Source: Brachionus manjavacas
Taxonomy: Eukaryota; Rotifera; Eurotatoria; Ploima; Brachionidae
DNA: 64,000 nucleotides
Direction of reading: 5' to 3'
NCBI GenBank assembly: GCA_019054805.1
Contig: JAHQIY010000004.1
Coordinates: 8,855,840-8,919,839, forward strand
In this document: positions 1,810-40,294 of the stretch, one piece after another
Numbering within the stretch: the first letter of the stretch is position 1
Layout: every line of letters starts with the position of its first letter
Made by a program: the position numbers and the translations under genes
Notes under the pieces: model-generated
Databases searched by the model: none
The model's input: only the letters and a program-made list of their open reading frames with translations
What the model was told of the DNA's origin: nothing

Positions 1810-1970
1810 TTCTTTTCCATATTGAAGGAATTCAATGAAAAATAGGAAAATTTTTTGGGTTAAATTTTTTTTTTGATTGGTTAAAAGAAAAGACGTTTTT
1901 TTGTGAAACTTTTATTTTAATTGGTTAAACAAAGTAACAATATTTTCCAAAAAAAAATGAAATAAAATAA
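1810..1970. repeat. Left arm of inner inverted repeat around the two-gene module
   Basis: This stretch matches the reverse complement of about 4400-4560, with gaps. Shared words include TTTTTGATTGGTTAAAA, GAAACTTTTATTTT and CAATATTTT followed by A-runs. The arm ends just before the stop codon of the minus-strand gene. Exact outer ends cannot be fixed by eye. Confidence 0.65.
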
Positions 1971-1983
1971 AAATGATACAATC

Positions 1984-2487
1984 TTAATTTTTTTTGCTTT
2001 TTTTAACATAAAAACGGAAAAAAGCCTCGTTTGATGAAAATAAAGTTTTTTCTTGTAAATCCTTTCCGAGGATTTTTAAAATCCTGGGAGTTTTTAACTT
2101 AATTTGAAATGAATTTTCATCAATTTTAAAAAAATCGTTTTTATTGATTAACCTTTCCTTAATTATCCTATAATCTAAAAGAAAATCTGTTGCGTCGCTA
2201 TACCCTTTTTGAAAATTATATGTCTTTCTCAAATAACTAATATTTTTTTTTTCAATTTTGATTTTGAATTTTCTCAAAGCTGAATTTCTTCGATGAACTT
2301 TTAAAAGTTTGCCGATGTTGTAATTGATCTCATTGATAAACTCATTAAAATGATTGTCATTTTGTTTGATGTATTTTCTTGTTTTTCTAGGCTTTGTCGT
2401 TGAAATCTTTGGTGCGTCTTTTTGGAGTCTTTTTAAATTGTAGAAACCAGGTTTATATAAACCCAAATTTCGAGTATTATAAGGCAT
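1984..2487 (-). CDS. Uncharacterised basic protein, divergent partner of the RAG1-like transposase
   Basis: A 167-residue open frame from an ATG at 2487, transcribed away from the transposase gene. Only about 130 bases separate the two starts, so they may share a promoter region. The protein is very rich in lysine, asparagine and isoleucine, with basic runs such as TKPRKTRKYIKQ, and has no visible membrane segment or zinc motif. I do not recognise it. Its place between the inner inverted-repeat arms suggests an accessory gene of the same element, perhaps DNA-binding, but that is inference. Base composition makes long AT-biased frames more likely by chance, yet the length and the ATG start favour a real gene. 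Confidence 0.5.
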   Translation of the reverse strand: MPYNTRNLGLYKPGFYNLKRLQKDAPKISTTKPRKTRKYIKQNDNHFNEFINEINYNIGKLLKVHRRNSALRKFKIKIEKKNISYLRKTYNFQKGYSDATDFLLDYRIIKERLINKNDFFKIDENSFQIKLKTPRILKILGKDLQEKTLFSSNEAFFRFYVKKSKKN

Positions 2488-2620
2488 TCTAGATTAAAAA
2501 AAAATGATTTTTATTCAATTAGATGATTTTCAAATTTAATGTAATAGTGTTAACATATTACATCAAATAAACACTAGACTCAAATATGAGAACGATACAA
2601 AAGACGCGGTAATTGGAATT

Positions 2621-4282
2621 TTGAAAAAGGAAAAAAATGACCTGGCTGAACGAATCATTGATTTGGATTCAAAAAAGTGCCGGTGTTCACCTGGAGTTAG
2701 AGGAGTTCAAGAAAGAAAGAGAAAAAACTTTTTTAATCTAACTAATAGGCAGACAATTAATGTGAGAGGAAAAATAAATTTAGTATTAAATGAATTAAAC
2801 AATTATTTTGACTCATTTGAGCTAGATTTATATAAAGTAACACTGTTAAAAAAACAGTCTAGTGGTAAATCCCATGAACTTGAAATTTTACCGAAAATTA
2901 AAAAGAAATGTACAGTTCAAAGTTGTTTGTATTTTAAAGACAAATATTTAATTTCCGATCATACTTATAGATCGTTAAGAAAAAATTTAGGTTTAGATAT
3001 ACCGCCTACTGATGAATTGATTTTAGAAAGAAATAAAATTAATTCAATTTTTAGTATTTATCAAATTGACGAAGGTTTTTATACGGATGTGAGAAAGCAG
3101 ATAATTGATAGATTGACTTATCTGTATTCTACAAAAAAAATTTCGGATAATTTGATAAAAATTAAATTGACAGCTGACGGAACAGTGCTCTCACGTTCAA
3201 TGAAGGTGATCAACTTCTGTTTCTCTATTATCAATCAAGGAAAAACCGCTGCAGGTTTGAACGGGATATATCCAATCGGTATCTTTAAGATTGATAATGA
3301 GAATTATGAATTAATAAAAAATTGGATGAGCGAAATATGGGCTTCATTAAAAGATTTTGATTATTTTCAATTCGAAGAAAAAAAAATAACTATCGAGTAT
3401 TATTTTTCTTCGGATTGGAAGATGATGTCTATAGTCTTAGGCTTATATAGCGCTTCATCTAATTTTCCTTGTCTGTGGTGCGAGTGCCCAAAAATAGACT
3501 TATCAAAAATTCAGGTAAATCCGCGAAGGTCTTATAAAAGGAACAGGGAAATTCTCGAAAAAAGTTCAAAAACTAAACGAGAACATTTTGGATACAAAGA
3601 GTATCCATTATTAGAGGAGATATCTCATTCAAAGTTTATTATCGACTTACTTCACTTATTCTTACGAATAAGTGATGTATTATTCGAACTCTTAATACAC
3701 GAGCTATATAGAATAGATAAATTTTCAAATTCGAGTCAATTTAATGAAAAAAAACATATTGAGTTAAAGAAACTCTCCGACTTTATAAAAACAAAATGTG
3801 GTATTTCGATCAAATATTTTAATCAAGAGACCAAGTCGGTCTCGACGATTTTAAACAAGCTGCCAGCCATAAAGAGAATAGCGATTTTTGAAAAAATTGA
3901 TGATTCTATTTTTGAAAAGATAGAAAACGGCAAGAAAATAAAAGAAATATGGATCGAATTTTACAAAATTTACAAGTATTTGACGTCTATTACTCCGCCA
4001 TCTTCATCGCAAATCAAGTCAAGAACAAAAGACTGGTTAAAATTGTTTCTTCGAGTTTATCATGAGGCAGATGTGACACCTTACATTCATGCATTTGTAA
4101 ACCACTTACATGAATTTTACGAGTCAAATATCAACGTTAATCACTTCAATCAGCAAGGCTTAGAAAAATATAATGATATTATAACAGCGACATATCATAG
4201 AGGCTCAAATAAAAGTAAATTATGTTTGAAGCAAATTTTGATGAAACAATGCCGAATGGCTTATTTTAATAATAAATTTTAA
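2621..4282 (+). CDS. RAG1-like DDE transposase
   Basis: An open frame of 553 residues counted from a TTG at 2621; the frame is open from 2540. No in-frame ATG occurs before residue 194, so the true start lies on an upstream exon or has been lost. Visible motifs are D186 (LTADGT), D265 (FSSDWK), C284/C287 (PCLWCEC), H490/H495 (YIHAFVNHLHEF) and E515 (QQGLEKYND). In mouse RAG1 the catalytic and zinc residues are D600, D708, C727, C730, H937, H942 and E962. The spacings D-to-C (19, 22), H-to-H (5) and H-to-E (25) are identical here, and C-to-H is 203 versus 207. The first D is closer (79 versus 108 residues). The same order also occurs in hAT and Transib enzymes, so the family is RAG1/Transib-like rather than RAG1 itself. 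No stop or frameshift interrupts the core. Confidence 0.75.
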   Translation: MKKEKNDLAERIIDLDSKKCRCSPGVRGVQERKRKNFFNLTNRQTINVRGKINLVLNELNNYFDSFELDLYKVTLLKKQSSGKSHELEILPKIKKKCTVQSCLYFKDKYLISDHTYRSLRKNLGLDIPPTDELILERNKINSIFSIYQIDEGFYTDVRKQIIDRLTYLYSTKKISDNLIKIKLTADGTVLSRSMKVINFCFSIINQGKTAAGLNGIYPIGIFKIDNENYELIKNWMSEIWASLKDFDYFQFEEKKITIEYYFSSDWKMMSIVLGLYSASSNFPCLWCECPKIDLSKIQVNPRRSYKRNREILEKSSKTKREHFGYKEYPLLEEISHSKFIIDLLHLFLRISDVLFELLIHELYRIDKFSNSSQFNEKKHIELKKLSDFIKTKCGISIKYFNQETKSVSTILNKLPAIKRIAIFEKIDDSIFEKIENGKKIKEIWIEFYKIYKYLTSITPPSSSQIKSRTKDWLKLFLRVYHEADVTPYIHAFVNHLHEFYESNINVNHFNQQGLEKYNDIITATYHRGSNKSKLCLKQILMKQCRMAYFNNKF

Positions 4283-4399
4283 TATTTTTTGTTTTTTATT
4301 TGTTTTACTTGTGTGTATTTTTTGTGATTTTCAACCCGAACTATTTTTATCCTTAATATTTTTTTGTTAAACATTTTATAAAAATTTAATAAAATATTA

Positions 4400-4560
4400 T
4401 AATTAGCTCATTTTTTTTTGTAAAATATTGCAGTTTTGTTTAGCCAAAAAAAATAAAAGTTTCAGAAATAAATTTCTTTTTGTTTTAACCAATCAAAAAA
4501 ATATTTCAAATAAGAAAAATTTCCTATTTTCTTCATTATGTCTTTTTCAAACAATTTTAA
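4400..4560. repeat. Right arm of inner inverted repeat around the two-gene module
   Basis: Reverse-complement partner of about 1810-1970, lying roughly 120 bases after the transposase stop codon. Together the two arms bracket both divergent genes, as terminal repeats of a separate inner element would. The match is imperfect, with several short gaps. Confidence 0.65.
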
Positions 4561-4653
4561 ATTGCATCAAATAAAAACATATGATTTGCAAACAAAAAAA
4601 ATTCCAAACTAACATTTTTAACACAAATTAAAATATTATTCAACTAAACAAAA

Positions 4654-5506
4654 ATGAGTGATATCGAAAGCCAAGCTTCAAGTAATTCCGATGAATGGTT
4701 TGTTTTGAAGCAAGGAATTCACAAGATGGAAATTGATGAATTCATCCAAAAAGAATTGCCTCCGTCGATCGCCTATCAGACAAACCATTCAACGTATTGC
4801 TTATTTTGTGTTGATTTTTTAAACAGACACAAAGCAAAGACACAATTAAGAAAATGTAAATCGTGCCAAGTTAAATACAGTATAAAATACTGTGCAATAA
4901 AAAATATTGGATCAATTTCACAAAAACTTGATCACTTGAAATACAATTGAAAGATGGCAACAAAATCCAGAGTTAAATGAGTTTATAAAATATTTTACAT
5001 CTCAATGGATTAATAGTCAGTGGGTAAATTGGAAGCTTTTTTCGCGTCCTATAGGTTTTTCAACGACGAATAACAACACAGAGGGTTTTAATAAAATTTT
5101 TAAACAAATTTACACTAATTATGAGCGCACCAATGTATTGGGTGCTTGTAAATTGTTCGAAAAAATGTTGACTGATTTAAGTAAATCCCAAGATTCTTTC
5201 GAACTTAAGCATAAAAGAGATAATATCCCAATAATAGAAGCTGATAAGCTATCTTTAAGTGATTTTCAATTTATAAGTTCAAGCTCTGCCAATCGAATTC
5301 TTAATGGTCAAGTTTCTTGTCAAGTTTATTTAGAACCTAAATATTGTTCGTGTAAATACTTTTTAGAATTTGGTATTTGCAAACATTATATAGCCTTATG
5401 CAAATTAAGTAATAAAGAATTTGATGAAGCTGATCGTGAGTTTGCCAAACTTAAGAAAAAAGGTAGACCACCAAAATCAAATAATGGTGCTTTAAATAAA
5501 GACTAA
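4654..5506 (+). pseudogene. Mutator-like (MULE) SWIM-finger transposase, core deleted
   Basis: The first piece (4654-4950) starts with ATG and encodes 98 residues with CLFC and KCKSC cysteine pairs, a typical N-terminal zinc region. It stops at a TGA. The second piece is open in a different frame from about 4940 to 5506. It carries the post-catalytic Mutator signature (SRPIGFSTTNNNTEGFNK) and a SWIM finger CSCKYFLEFGICKH, which fits CxCx8CxH exactly. It ends with a KKKGRPPKS tail. The DDE catalytic domain that should lie between the two pieces (normally several hundred residues) is absent and the frame shifts at the junction near 4938-4950. It cannot encode an active transposase. An intron at the junction is less likely because no good splice pair replaces the missing domain. 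Confidence 0.82.
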
Positions 5507-5749
5507 TTTGTATAATTTGTTTGTTTAAATTACAGAAATTATTATTTATTAAAGATTTATTTTTTATATCAAACATTTATTTTTTATATTAAAAAAAAAT
5601 TTTTTTTATTTACAAATAAAAGTATTTATTTAAAAAAATAATTAGTTTATAACACCTTTTTTTTTGTTTAATTGTAGTGCAAAACTATTTAAAACTATAT
5701 TATTTTTGTTTAGGAAAAAATAATTCTTATTTAACTTAATTGTTATCTC

Positions 5750-26318: not shown

Positions 26319-28664
26319 TTACTTGCTAGTTGAATTAAATTGAAATTGAGAATTATTGGGACTATCTTCATGATTACCATTTTGATTTGAGGGCTGGTAA
26401 TAATAATTCGAGTCAAATAAATTTGGATTAATGGTGCTGTTTATCTCGGTAATTTGACTTGGATCAAAATTAGGGTTATAAATTGTATTAGGGCTATCGA
26501 AATTTTCCTCATTAACTAGCTCATTTTGATTATAAGCCAAATTTTGTCGGGCCACAGTGTTTAATAAATAATTATTTATTGATATGTATGCAAACATTGA
26601 CACCAAACATAAGATACCATAAGCTGCAAAGGTCGCTTTTGACCCAAAGCTGGTTACAAAAATACCTCCGATTAGAGCGCCACATCCTCTGCCAAGTCCA
26701 AAATGTATAGCTTGAAGAATACCCTGGGCCGAAGGCCTTAAATCTTCAGGAACCGATTGAGCAAAATAAGAAGTCGCTGTTGCCCAAACCAAAGCATGAG
26801 TGACCCCTTGAATTAACTCGAAAGGTAGAATCCAATAGGGCTCAGTCAATATGGACACGTAAATAAAGCGAGCTGCATTGCCTAACAAACCAGCGTAGAA
26901 AACTCTTACATGACCATATTTTCTGACTATTTGATGAACAAAAAAATACGCCATTAGCTCACTCATGTGATTAATGACGCTGGCAATGCCGTACAACGAG
27001 GGCGTTCCGCCCATGTCCTGCAAATGCCAAAACAAAAAAGTAAAAGCCAAACCAACTCCTATGCCCATGAACCATACCACAAATAAAAATGTAATTAACT
27101 TCCAGGTTTTACACGCCTCACATAGTTTTCTTATCTTTGAATTTTCATTTAGATCAAGCGGCTGTTGTTGCGGTACGTGATCCACTTCTTCCGCATTATC
27201 ATCGTCATCACTTTCATTGACAAATTTTTTTCTGCCAAATTGATCTCCTCTTATGTTGTTTACTTTTTTCTTGATAGAGTGTGCCATCGATTTCAAGGGT
27301 ATTTCCTCTTCTTCATAATTAAATTTAAACTGAGTAGCTATTATCAATGCACAGCCCATTAGGACCGAATAAATAGCGAAGCAAACAGTATAATTTCGTT
27401 CATCAGGTCCAGCTTTGCCACAAGGATGATCCGTAAAAGCCTTGGAGTTGTCGAGTAAAAGACCGACTGAAAACATGGCCAACGCCCACCCCAGACTCCC
27501 AAACATTCTTTGTCGACCATACAGATCAGAGCGAGATGGGCCCAGATATTGAAGAGTGCACGTATCTACCAGAGTGATTGCTGGAGCACTGAAAAATTCA
27601 CCGGCCAAAATAAATATCAAAAATACCAAAAATACCTTGTTAACATCACTTTTGTGATAAACTATGCTTGTCTCAAGAGATGGTTTAACCAAGCGCATTG
27701 TAGAGTCATTCATGTAGATTATTTTTGATCTTGTTTTGCTCGAGTCCAATGGCTCTGGGTCAAAATAATGTGTTTTTTCAACTTTTTTTAAATTTTCTTT
27801 GCTAGTTATGTGCATTGGTCTGGCTTCTGTGACTAATCTAGAACTTTTTTCAGTAATTTTAGTATTTTTTTTTGTCTCAATGACGTGATTGAGAGTGGTC
27901 TTTGCAGTGGTGGTCGTTGTTGGAGTCTGAAAAGTTGTTGACTGAGAAGTCTTGGTTTTTCTTATCTTAATCACTTTAGTAATGTTGATGTATCTAAATT
28001 TTGATTTATCGTAGCTGTGTTCAGAATTTGACTCTATGTTCTGGTAGAGCTGATCCAGACTTCGCTTGTAGACCACATTTTGTCCACCTTTGATAATTTT
28101 ATTCGCCGCAGGACCATTGATAAATGCTGTCTTGGATTTTTCCAAAAAAATGTGACTATCATTATGCATTAGACAAGAGTGGACCGGTGGTTTTACGAAA
28201 CCAATAGCGAGAGTAAACACTATCCAACAAACTAACGAGCCCAGCAATATAAGCTTTCCTTTTTTCCATCGTTCACTAAAGTTTGCCCAAAAAGGAACGC
28301 TTAGAAACTCAATGAAGGGTTTAAAGCCGAACAAAATTCCAACTTGGACAGGTGACATGGCCATCTGTTTGAAATAGATTGCCATCAAGGGAAAGAGAGA
28401 GCCGAAAGCTGCGAAAAAGAAGAAGTAGAAAGCCTTGGGAATTAATAAGGTTTGATTTATTTGCGAGCACAAAGAGTCAATGAAATCGCGTCTGTATTGA
28501 TGGGTCGAATGGTTGTCATCATTCGAAGTCTTGAGCTGCACAGATCCTAGAAAATTTTTCATTTGATTTGCGATACCTTTGGGTTCGGCATCGTATTCGT
28601 ATAAATCACTTTCATCGTACTGGCCAGTGTTGGTCTGTTCTTGATAAAGAGAATTTTGCGCCAT
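26319..28664 (-). CDS. MFSD6: MFSD6-like major facilitator superfamily transporter
   Basis: 781 residues in one uninterrupted frame from ATG at 28664. The first helices (about 76-97, 106-125, 136-157) carry FKPFIEFLSVPFWANFSERW, the MFSD6 version of the MFS loop motif. A long Thr/Ser/Lys-rich loop (about 158-345) follows, as in MFSD6 proteins. The second half holds the hallmark GILQAIHFGLGRGCGALIGG and ends with an Asn-rich cytosolic tail. Length is close to that of vertebrate MFSD6 (about 790). It is a multi-pass membrane protein; the transported substrate is not settled for this family, so I assign none. A charged EEDDDDNAEE-type linker (ESDDDDNAEEVDH) lies between the two helix bundles. 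There is no intron, which is unusual for a gene this long. The start is fixed by the only upstream in-frame Met near the first polar residues. Confidence 0.93.
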   Translation of the reverse strand: MAQNSLYQEQTNTGQYDESDLYEYDAEPKGIANQMKNFLGSVQLKTSNDDNHSTHQYRRDFIDSLCSQINQTLLIPKAFYFFFFAAFGSLFPLMAIYFKQMAMSPVQVGILFGFKPFIEFLSVPFWANFSERWKKGKLILLGSLVCWIVFTLAIGFVKPPVHSCLMHNDSHIFLEKSKTAFINGPAANKIIKGGQNVVYKRSLDQLYQNIESNSEHSYDKSKFRYINITKVIKIRKTKTSQSTTFQTPTTTTTAKTTLNHVIETKKNTKITEKSSRLVTEARPMHITSKENLKKVEKTHYFDPEPLDSSKTRSKIIYMNDSTMRLVKPSLETSIVYHKSDVNKVFLVFLIFILAGEFFSAPAITLVDTCTLQYLGPSRSDLYGRQRMFGSLGWALAMFSVGLLLDNSKAFTDHPCGKAGPDERNYTVCFAIYSVLMGCALIIATQFKFNYEEEEIPLKSMAHSIKKKVNNIRGDQFGRKKFVNESDDDDNAEEVDHVPQQQPLDLNENSKIRKLCEACKTWKLITFLFVVWFMGIGVGLAFTFLFWHLQDMGGTPSLYGIASVINHMSELMAYFFVHQIVRKYGHVRVFYAGLLGNAARFIYVSILTEPYWILPFELIQGVTHALVWATATSYFAQSVPEDLRPSAQGILQAIHFGLGRGCGALIGGIFVTSFGSKATFAAYGILCLVSMFAYISINNYLLNTVARQNLAYNQNELVNEENFDSPNTIYNPNFDPSQITEINSTINPNLFDSNYYYQPSNQNGNHEDSPNNSQFQFNSTSK

Positions 28665-35897: not shown

Positions 35898-37572
35898 ATG
35901 AGTGCAATACCCAATTCATGTCCTTGGGCCAAATTATCTCAGACTCCTGTTGTTCATTCACTAAATGAAGTAATGAGCGAACAGCTAGCTTTAGACTTGA
36001 ATGAACAAGAATACAAATATGATGACAGTAAATTTTCTTCAGGAAATAAAGCTAAAACCAATAACAATGAATTAGTTATTCCGTCTGAATTTCTAGATTA
36101 CGATTCAAAAACTGATAATGATCTAATTTTGGCCCAACTTTTACAACTAGAATTTGACAAAGAATATGACAATTTATTAAGGTCAAAAGAAAGCCATGAA
36201 AATAAAAACAGCCACATTTCTATATCTTATGAAAAATTCAAGTCAGTTCATCCAATTGATGCCAAAGAGGAAAATGAACTGAACTTTTCGACTAAAGAAG
36301 AAATTTTCACTTCAAGCGATTCGGAAGATGGTCAGTCAAGATTTGAAAAATTTTATGAAAATTTTTTGATTAATTTTATTTTTAGAATTTCAAAAAATTG
36401 TTTTTAAAAATGGCATTAGTGGCAAAGGAGATAAAATGATTTCAAAGCATGACTTGCTTCTCAATTATCGTCACAATGCATCCAAGATAATGAACCTATT
36501 TCCACCAGAGTTTGAAACTGGCGATAGTCACGGAATCGACATGAAATTATCAAACCAAGTTTACAATACCCTAAAAATGCACTCACAATCGGAAAAAAGA
36601 AGAATCAATCGAGTCCATGACAAACAAGATAAGTCAACCAACATGATGGCTCTTGATCCAAAAACAAAGCTTGTCTTATTCAAACTTGTAAACGCAGACA
36701 TTTTAGATTCGATCGGTGGTGTAATTTCGACCGGCAAGGAAGCAACCATTTTCTATGCACCAGGAGGTAGGACACAAGAAATTCTAGTGCCCAAAGAATG
36801 TGTGGCAAAAGTGTTTAAAACAACTTTAAACGAATTCAAAACCCGGGAAAAATACATAGCTGAAGATTATAGGTTCAAAGATAGATTCAAGCATTTGAAT
36901 CCTCAAAAGGTGGTGCGCCTCTGGGCTGAAAAAGAAATGCACAATTTGATGAAAATGAGAAAATTTGAGATCCCTTGTCCCGATGTTGTTGTCTTAAAAA
37001 AGCAAATTTTGATTATGTCATTTATAGGAAAAGACAATGTACCAGCACCTAAGCTTAAAGATGCCAATTTAGATGAAATTCAACTAGTAAATGCTTATCA
37101 CCAATGTATTCAGCTAATTAAAGATCTTTACCATAAATGTAACCTTGTTCATGCTGACTTCAATCAGTTTAATTTGCTATGGCACGATGAAAAAGTCTGG
37201 GTGATTGATGTATCACAATCGGTCGAGCCTATTCATCCCATGGGCTATGAATTTTTACTCAGGGACTGTCAGAACATTTTCAAGTTTTTCACTAATCGCA
37301 AGCTGGAAAAGGTTAAAACTGGGGAGGAAATATTCAATGAAGTAACTGGAACGAAGTTTACCGGCGAAGGCGAGTACTTTTTGTCACAAATTCAAAAATA
37401 TACGAAAGATAAACAAATGGAGCTTAAGACTCATTTAAAGGAAGAGAACCCGAAAAAAAGCAAAGAAAAAGAATTCAATTTTGATTATTATTATGAGCTA
37501 AGCATGCAACGACTAAAAGATAAGACTAATTTTGATTGTCAGGATTTAAGTGATAATCAAACAGAAAATTAA
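35898..37572 (+). CDS. RIOK1: Serine/threonine-protein kinase RIO1
   Basis: Two exons: 35898-36330 and 36386-37572, with a 55-base GTCAGT...TTTTAG intron in phase 1. The joined protein is about 539 residues (human RIOK1 is 568). Its acidic N-terminal region is followed by the RIO kinase domain. Visible motifs are the phosphate-binding ISTGKEATIFYA at about 257-268, the catalytic lysine in CVAKVFK at about 286, the catalytic loop LVHADFNQFN (His400, Asp402, Asn407) and the metal-binding IDVSQ (Asp419). RIO1 is an atypical kinase or ATPase of late 40S ribosomal subunit maturation in the cytoplasm. The C-terminal part is lysine- and glutamate-rich, as in relatives. All key residues are present, so it should be functional. 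The ATG at 35898 lies just after a splice acceptor. AATAAA-type signals occur near 37626, shortly after the stop. Confidence 0.96.
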
Positions 37573-38779: not shown

Positions 38780-40294
38780 ATATTGAGCTCTTGAATTTGA
38801 TCTACTAATCATGCTCGTAGCAAGGAAATTGACAATTCTGCAGTGTTTTGAAAACTACGTAAATGTTGATCTTTTGTAAGTTTCCCGAGTGCATAACTTT
38901 TCGAATCTTGGACCTTTATTTGATCTGTAAAAGCAAAAGTCAAGAAAATCCCAAGTTCTTTCTAGTAGTATCTTCGTTTACCACAAATCAAAAAATTCAT
39001 TTCAAAAAACCTATCTGAAAAAGGTTAAAAAATGACTTTTTTGCTCTTTTTCGAAGTCGCCTAAAATCTTGTCCTTTTAATTCAATTGACTTCTGTAAAT
39101 TGTATCATGTAGAACTTTTTGAGCTCTTGAACTTAAGATAATAATCATTATCGTAGCTAGAAAATTGACCATTCTGCAGTGACTTGAAAACTACGTAAAT
39201 GTTGATCTTTTGTAAGTTTCCCGAGTGCATAACTTTTCGAATCTTGGACCTTTATTTGATCTGTAAAAGCAAAAGTCAAGAAAATCCCAAGTTCTTTCTA
39301 GTAGTATCTTCGTTTACCACAAATCAAAAAATTCATTTCAAAAAACCTATCTGAAAAAGGTTAAAAAATGACTTTTTTGCTCTTTTTCGAAGTCGCCTAA
39401 AATCTTGTCCTTTTAATTCAATTGACTTCTGTAAATTGTATCATGTAGAACTTTTTGAGCTCTTGAACTTAAGATAATAATCATTATCGTAGCTAGAAAA
39501 TTGACCATTCTGCAGTGACTTGAAAACTACGTAAATGTTGATCTTTTGTAAGTTTCCCGAGTGCATAACTTTTCGAATCTTGGACCTTTATTTGATCTGT
39601 AAAAGCAAAAGTCAAGAAAATCCCAAGTTCTTTCTAGTAGTATCTTCGTTTACCACAAATCAAAAAATTCATTTCAAAAAACCTATCTGAAAAAGGTTAA
39701 AAAATGACTTTTTTGCTCTTTTTCGAAGTCGCCTAAAATCTTGTCCTTTTAATTCAATTGACTTCTGTAAATTGTATCATGTAGAACTTTTTGAGCTCTT
39801 GAACTTAAGATAATAATCATTATCGTAGCTAGAAAATTGACCATTCTGCAGTGACTTGAAAACTACGTAAATGTTGATCTTTTGTAAGTTTCCCGAGTGC
39901 ATAACTTTTCGAATCTTGGACCTTTATTTGATCTGTAAAAGCAAAAGTCAAGAAAATCCCAAGTTCTTTCTAGTAGTATCTTCGTTTACCACAAATCAAA
40001 AAATTCATTTCAAAAAACCTATCTGAAAAAGGTTAAAAAATGACTTTTTTGCTCTTTTTCGAAGTCGCCTAAAATCTTGTCCTTTTAATTCAATTGACTT
40101 CTGTAAATTGTATCATGTAGAACTTTTTGAGCTCTTGAACTTAAGATAATAATCATTATCGTAGCTAGAAAATTGACCATTCTGCAGTGACTTGAAAACT
40201 ACGTAAATGTTGATCTTTTGTAAGTTTCCCGAGTGCATAACTTTTCGAATCTTGGACCTTTATTTGATCTGTAAAAGCAAAAGTCAAGAAAATC
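38780..40294. repeat. 336-bp tandem repeat, about 4.5 copies
   Basis: AAAACTACGTAAATGTTGAT recurs at 38851, 39187, 39523, 39859 and 40195, exactly 336 bases apart each time. The first unit differs at its left edge (around 38783-38850); the next three appear identical. The last copy stops at GTCAAGAAAATC (40294). The identity points to recent amplification or gene conversion. No coding potential; an 81-codon minus frame at the right edge is a by-product. Confidence 0.95.

Follow-up and report, generated by a model that had tools for sequence, protein, structure and literature searches.

The window analysed here, 64,000 nucleotides of Brachionus manjavacas DNA (contig JAHQIY010000004.1, positions 8,855,840 to 8,919,839), contains a transposon with two divergent genes, one of which encodes a RAG1-like transposase. 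The element very probably represents a cut-and-paste transposon lineage that uses the RAG1/Transib catalytic core and is separate from both Transib and RAGL. At the level of sequence, this lineage is characterised by repeated copies, inverted ends, a 1-bp target-site duplication with empty sites in one family (F2), and, in three families, two ends that are unequal by 11 bp. The element is not classed as Transib or RAGL because its duplication length, its ends and its second gene do not agree with those groups.

Catalytic and zinc residues of the transposase

The original prediction described a transposase in a single uninterrupted frame, with catalytic and zinc residues spaced as in RAG1. The frame at 2540-4282 on the + strand is indeed open for 580 codons, but the gene is incomplete: it likely starts at an ATG at 2504 and meets a TAA at codon 12 (2537-2539). 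The corresponding triplet is a sense codon in the sister copies L041 and L042 (96-98% DNA identity), both of which are broken at other sites. Because of the early stop, the window copy is probably unable to make the full transposase. Intact copies were to be sought in the same genome, and an intact-looking relative was found in L002, which, like L008, has a frame open from its first ATG (625 and 656 codons, respectively) and keeps all seven residues. The transposase features are as follows.

2504..4282, + strand: RAG1-like transposase gene, ATG at 2504, in-frame TAA at 2537-2539, open from 2540 to 4282
3176..3178, + strand: first catalytic Asp, putative counterpart of RAG1 D600 by position
3413..3415, + strand: second catalytic Asp, aligned to RAG1 D708
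3470..3481, + strand: CxxC, aligned to RAG1 C727/C730
4088..4105, + strand: HxxxxH, aligned to RAG1 H937/H942
4163..4165, + strand: catalytic Glu, aligned to RAG1 E962

The seven residues had been correctly placed at D186, D265, C284, C287, H490, H495 and E515, counting from the TTG at 2621, and their gaps (19, 22, 5 and 25, with 203 from CxxC to H) were reproduced on recomputation. In the 580-residue numbering they become D213, D292, C311, C314, H517, H522 and E542, 27 higher in each case. We take the mouse RAG1 positions to be D600, D708, C727, C730, H937, H942 and E962.

A database search with the transposase returned 20 relatives, some of them from Brachionus calyciflorus, B. plicatilis and the fungus Glomus cerebriforme. 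The closest named proteins come from the two Brachionus species, in line with the rotifer host proposed from the letters alone. When the alignment served as query, the database yielded 19 proteins, including the new P0022 and P0023, neither of which was used further; a search of viral contigs gave one pattern match and no relative. Conservation was assessed on 18 proteins, P0001 and 17 of the 20 database relatives, with the partial P0005, P0007 and P0009 (348-382 aa) excluded and some other partial proteins included. Counting the rows that reach each site, the remainder being gaps, the first D is kept in 16/16, the second D in 17/17, the first H in 15/15, the second H in 14/14 and E in 15/15. 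The first C of the CxxC is present in all 18 rows and the second in 16/18, the other two rows having S or Y. Because it is kept across the aligned relatives, the D/D/CxxC/H/H/E pattern exceeds chance in this alignment.

Relation to the RAG1 fold

Pfam searches with the single transposase found no family above cut-off (two matches fell below the cut-offs), and all 18 aligned proteins matched 38 families, with no transposase family among 25 of the 38. A single-protein phmmer search of the PDB returned one row (E 0.22, N-terminal residues 9-72) and no useful relative, so a profile was needed. When the family alignment was used in an hmmsearch of the PDB, RAG1 came first (3jbw, which we take to be zebrafish RAG1; E 2.6e-6), followed by more RAG1 chains and RAG1L (6b40, E 1.9e-5); the highest-ranking row outside RAG belonged to a histone H3 chain (E 0.011). 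A comparison with mouse RAG1 using hhalign gave the same residue pairs at E 2.4e-6 and probability 88.9, with one sequence on the RAG1 side and a small family alignment (Neff 3.8). In both alignments six of the seven residues pair with RAG1 D708, C727, C730, H937, H942 and E962. The first D lies outside both, and on the basis of its conservation and the whole-core structural match we infer that it is the counterpart of D600.

The predicted structure matches the core fold of RAG1/RAG1L over 438 residues, while residues 1-120, for which the comparison is with the RAG1 nonamer-binding domain, are barely covered by the structural matches. Superposition of a predicted structure on the RAG1 core had been proposed as a check. 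Comparison of the model with solved proteins placed RAG1, RAG1L and Transib ahead of the others listed, among rows from which structures of CACTA, Mirage, Chapaev and ESTA were absent. By alignment and predicted model, the protein thus has the RAG1/Transib catalytic core, with D, D, CxxC, HxxxxH and E in order. The original prediction had left a choice between the RAG1/Transib superfamily and a related family with the same core. Profile, profile comparison and predicted fold bear out the related-family branch; membership of Transib/RAG proper is not supported, as the element departs from that group in its target duplication, its terminal sequence and its second gene.

The element and its copies

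The transposon lies inside another repeat, five copies of which (L028-L032) run on uninterrupted without it. Because these copies continue without the insertion, the element can be bounded at 1818-4540, with ends CATATTG/CATAATG and flanks TC/TC.

1818..4540, + strand: whole transposon, a family F1 copy of 2,723 bp, from the empty copies of the host repeat
1816..1817, + strand: left flank TC, a 2-bp target duplication, or a 1-bp duplication of C plus an additional base on the right
4541..4542, + strand: right flank TC, from the same empty-copy comparison
1818..1849, + strand: long end, CATATTGAAG, with the extra 11 bp GAATTCAATGA (1828-1838) and the inner block AAAATAGGAAA
4520..4540, - strand: short end, CATAATGAAG then directly AAAATAGGAAA (minus-strand reading)
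1834..2014, no strand: left inner inverted-repeat arm, 75% across 184 columns and 82% across the outer 130
4359..4537, no strand: right inner inverted-repeat arm, pairing with the left arm
1984..2487, - strand: second gene, encoding 167 aa, in divergent orientation to the transposase; nothing in Pfam passed the cut-off, and the database search found no relative

A genome search with the transposase gave 75 match rows, in some cases several per locus. Ends were recognised on one side only in L041, L042 and L058 (F1) and L046 (F2), and by hand reading in L049, L051, L053 and L055. With inverted ends, a target duplication, multiple copies and empty sites, the element is a cut-and-paste DNA transposon. 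The long open frame might alternatively point to a host gene domesticated from a transposase; with transposon ends inside another repeat, multiple copies and an early stop, this explanation is extremely improbable.

The host repeat (1722-1817 and 4541-5749) contains open reading frame (ORF) fragments, one of them with a SWIM zinc finger; it is possibly a MULE-type element, presuming the association of SWIM with such elements. The sister copy L041 has approximately 0.6 kb of additional DNA at the 3' end of its second gene (L041:1960-2587).

Target-site duplication

The duplication was sampled best in family F2 (L043-L046), whose members share ~95% DNA identity and encode a protein ~50% identical to that of the window. 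Both F2 ends, CATAGTGAGTG and CATCTTGAGTG, recur in 27 short copies. We fetched 20 of these, chosen before their flanks were seen, and added the 3 full copies with both ends, giving 23 insertions. One flanking base matched in 23/23, two bases in 7/23 and three bases in 0/23; a single-base match is expected by chance at ~0.3 in DNA of such composition. The 23 joined flanks were then searched against the genome for empty sites, and three of them had full-length matches among the 40 of 2,793 candidates that were scored. For L077, L044 and L045 the joined flanks with one copy of the base match uninterrupted genome sites, so that a 1-bp duplication is seen in 3/3. A first reading of the F2 duplication as 2 bp was ruled out by the 7/23 count, and a Transib-type 5-bp duplication by the 23/23 1-bp insertions together with the three empty sites. 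Identity among the 20 short copies is 94.8-100% (median 98.5%), and the family has therefore moved recently. Judged from its own flanks, the F3 element L050 has T on both sides.

An 11-bp difference between the two ends

The inverted ends follow the general form CATAnTGA, reading CATAGTG/CATCTTG in F2 and CATATCA in the F3 element L050. In F1, the short end passes directly into the inner block, and GAATTCAATGA is interposed at the long end. The F2 short end likewise consists of CATAGTGAGT then GAATCGTCCGAA, and its long end has 11 further bases, GAATTCAATGT-like, before the same block. In L050, whose protein is 32-34% identical to that of the window, the inner block begins at 29 on the side of the transposase and at 18 at the opposite end. 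The difference is again 11 bp, and the long end has changed sides relative to F1 and F2. The F3 ends were initially read at GACAT, a reading dropped since the inverted repeat extends outward to CATATCAATTT.

In an ungapped offset scan, 11 bp was the best offset in 26/26 elements, with the opposite sign in L050. The set comprised the window copy, L059, the 3 full and 20 short F2 copies and L050, and thus represents three families, not 26 independent cases; the one-ended L041, L042, L046, L049, L051, L053, L055 and L058 were excluded, as was L084. Within F3, the inner block lies at 29 in the single end of L053 and at 18 in that of L051, both as in L050. A scan for the long-end motif (<=3 mismatches) returned mostly chance matches. 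The F3 end counts leave out four other end matches, located at C1, C2, C4 and C5:5835922.

It is conceivable, if somewhat short of probable, that the end difference is an inherited accident that plays no part in pairing, such as a promoter or regulatory insertion at one end. The inserted segment is alike between families (GAATTCAATG-like) and may simply be inherited, and the difference is not always 11, being 12 in L084. On the other hand, the length is kept in three families with proteins 32-52% identical to the window's and differing inner blocks, and the long end lies on the transposase side in F3 but at the opposite end in F1 and F2.

The second gene

The second gene encodes a small basic protein. 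A database search with this protein produced 45 candidates, none at E 0.001, and Pfam gave one match below cut-off and none to kelch or PHD; a single-sequence fold (pLDDT 41.8) was meaningless. A genome search returned 31 match rows. Those at C4, C5, C7, C10, C11, C13, C15 and C25 include copies adjoining transposase matches in the divergent layout, and relatives of the second gene adjoin transposases of other families. Some rows, e.g. C3:1226481, have no neighbouring transposase match. In the F2 copies L043-L046, a 138-bp duplicate of the D..CxxC coding segment, ~84% identical, lies between the two genes (for example L043:4616-4753 versus 3436-3574).

Remainder of the window

A 92-bp tandem array of ~258 copies occupies 40383-64000 and runs to the end of the window, where contig C4 also ends; it is a chromosome-end or assembly-end satellite. 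Adjoining it at 38783-40294 is a 336-bp unit repeated 4.5 times (98% match). A gene with a RIO kinase domain lies at 36436-37572, and a 781-codon gene with a major facilitator transporter domain at 26319-28664.

Comparison with known systems

RAGL and Transib elements almost always duplicate 5 bp of target and have ends that resemble the heptamer of the recombination signal sequence (RSS; PMC7204232) and have been likened to CAC (PMC7204232, PMC8355894). Transib has a single gene, and RAGL carries a convergent RAG2L (PMC7204232). The element described here shares the core fold over 438 residues with RAG1/RAG1L, along with the D-D-E and C2H2 zinc residues. Its unequal ends also recall the 12/23 RSS and the asymmetric 27/31 bp spacers on which ProtoRAG depends (PMC8289069), and the 11-bp difference corresponds to the excess of the 23-RSS over the 12-RSS; outside V(D)J recombination, 12/23 asymmetry is reported only in some Transibs (PMC8355894). 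The shared core fold and catalytic and zinc residues, and the 12/23-like ends of some Transibs, speak for an element belonging to Transib or RAGL proper. That reading is nevertheless already contradicted by the duplication length, 1 bp in 23/23 F2 insertions as opposed to 5 bp. The ends are mostly of CATA type rather than CAC-like, and the short second gene is divergent, unlike the convergent RAG2L or the single gene of Transib; no RAG2-like gene was found. We consider membership of either group very unlikely.

A closer resemblance is to the CMCT clade, which is described as having mostly CA..TG termini and 2-5 bp target-site duplications (PMC12730594, Kojima 2025). CACTA/EnSpm, Mirage and Chapaev have a CxxC and H-H between the second D and E, together with CA..TG termini (PMC12730594). 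Both features, CA..TG termini and C2C/HH between the second D and E, are found here. The 1-bp F2 duplication is outside the clade's range, whereas the TC of the F1 window copy fits unchanged. By description, the likeness to CACTA/EnSpm, Mirage and Chapaev extends to the CxxC/H-H order and the termini; the duplication lengths differ. Duplications in CACTA/EnSpm, Mirage and Chapaev are 2-4 bp, depending on the superfamily.

ESTA elements, EnSpm-like transposons known from rust fungi, have TA as their target duplication and a transposase with HHpred similarity to RAG1 (PMC12730594). Compared by description, ESTA within the CMCT clade is the nearest published kind: both have a RAG1-like transposase recognised by profile methods, CA..TG termini and short duplications. 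By the same description, the present element differs in its duplication (1 bp in F2, TC in the window), in its two divergent genes, in its animal host and in that no TET-enzyme ORF was seen among element ORFs of at least 60 aa. Judged from sequence features, placement inside the CMCT clade is likely, and near ESTA possible. The element might then simply be ESTA, or another described CMCT lineage, in an animal rather than rust fungi. The HHpred similarity, the clade's termini and duplications (PMC12730594) and the relative in Glomus cerebriforme speak for this; ESTA is, however, named for its TA duplications, at odds with those seen here, and the TET enzyme is missing from the ORFs surveyed. 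On balance we regard this alternative as unlikely, though less so than Transib or RAGL proper. A literature search, outside which lay most subscription papers and Repbase, found no paper on Brachionus with RAG1 and transposase, and no 1-bp duplication of a DNA transposon, only of LINE-1 retrotransposition.

Proposed mechanism and significance

For the separate RAG1-core lineage favoured here, a transposase dimer would bind one short and one long end. By analogy with RAG1 and Transib, the D-D-E site would cut by nicking and hairpin formation, and both ends would be joined to the target almost opposite each other, with a 1-bp stagger compared to 5 bp in RAG/Transib. Since 11 bp is one helical turn, the two ends may be bound non-equivalently, which would favour the pairing of unlike ends in the manner of the 12/23 rule. 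The second protein may contribute to binding or pairing the ends. We put forward an unlike-end pairing rule tentatively. It is similarly conceivable, if somewhat short of probable, that the elements form a separate superfamily-level lineage of the RAG1 fold, with a 1-bp stagger and enforced short/long pairing (11 bp, 23 minus 12).

Several observations weigh against the favoured explanation of the element. The duplication of the window copy reads as 2 bp, TC, without any change, and the F1 copy L059 is read either as 1 bp with one substitution or as 2 bp with one deletion, so F1 may differ from F2 in duplication length. The best hmmsearch row is composed of two stretches that are weak singly (0.11 and 0.24), its significance coming from the sum. 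Because of the rows shown, the structural match cannot rank RAG1/Transib above CACTA, Mirage, Chapaev or ESTA. CAC-like ends do occur in two copies, on one side of L059 (CACATTG) and on both sides of the degenerate L084. In F3, only L050 has both ends clear, and two copies do not fit: L055, with the inner block at 31, and the short L084, with 31 and 19. No ends were recognised in L047, L048, L052, L054, L056, L057 and L060. Hairpin formation and unlike-end pairing are themselves carried over from RAG1/Transib.

If the pairing proposal is true, it would show that a RAG1-related system with different ends and no RAG2 can follow a 12/23-type rule. How the 12/23 rule arose has yet to be settled, and a side-swapping 11-bp asymmetry in a different RAG1-core lineage would provide another testable case. 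A 1-bp duplication made by a RAG1 fold would, in turn, show the range of strand-transfer spacing that this core permits.
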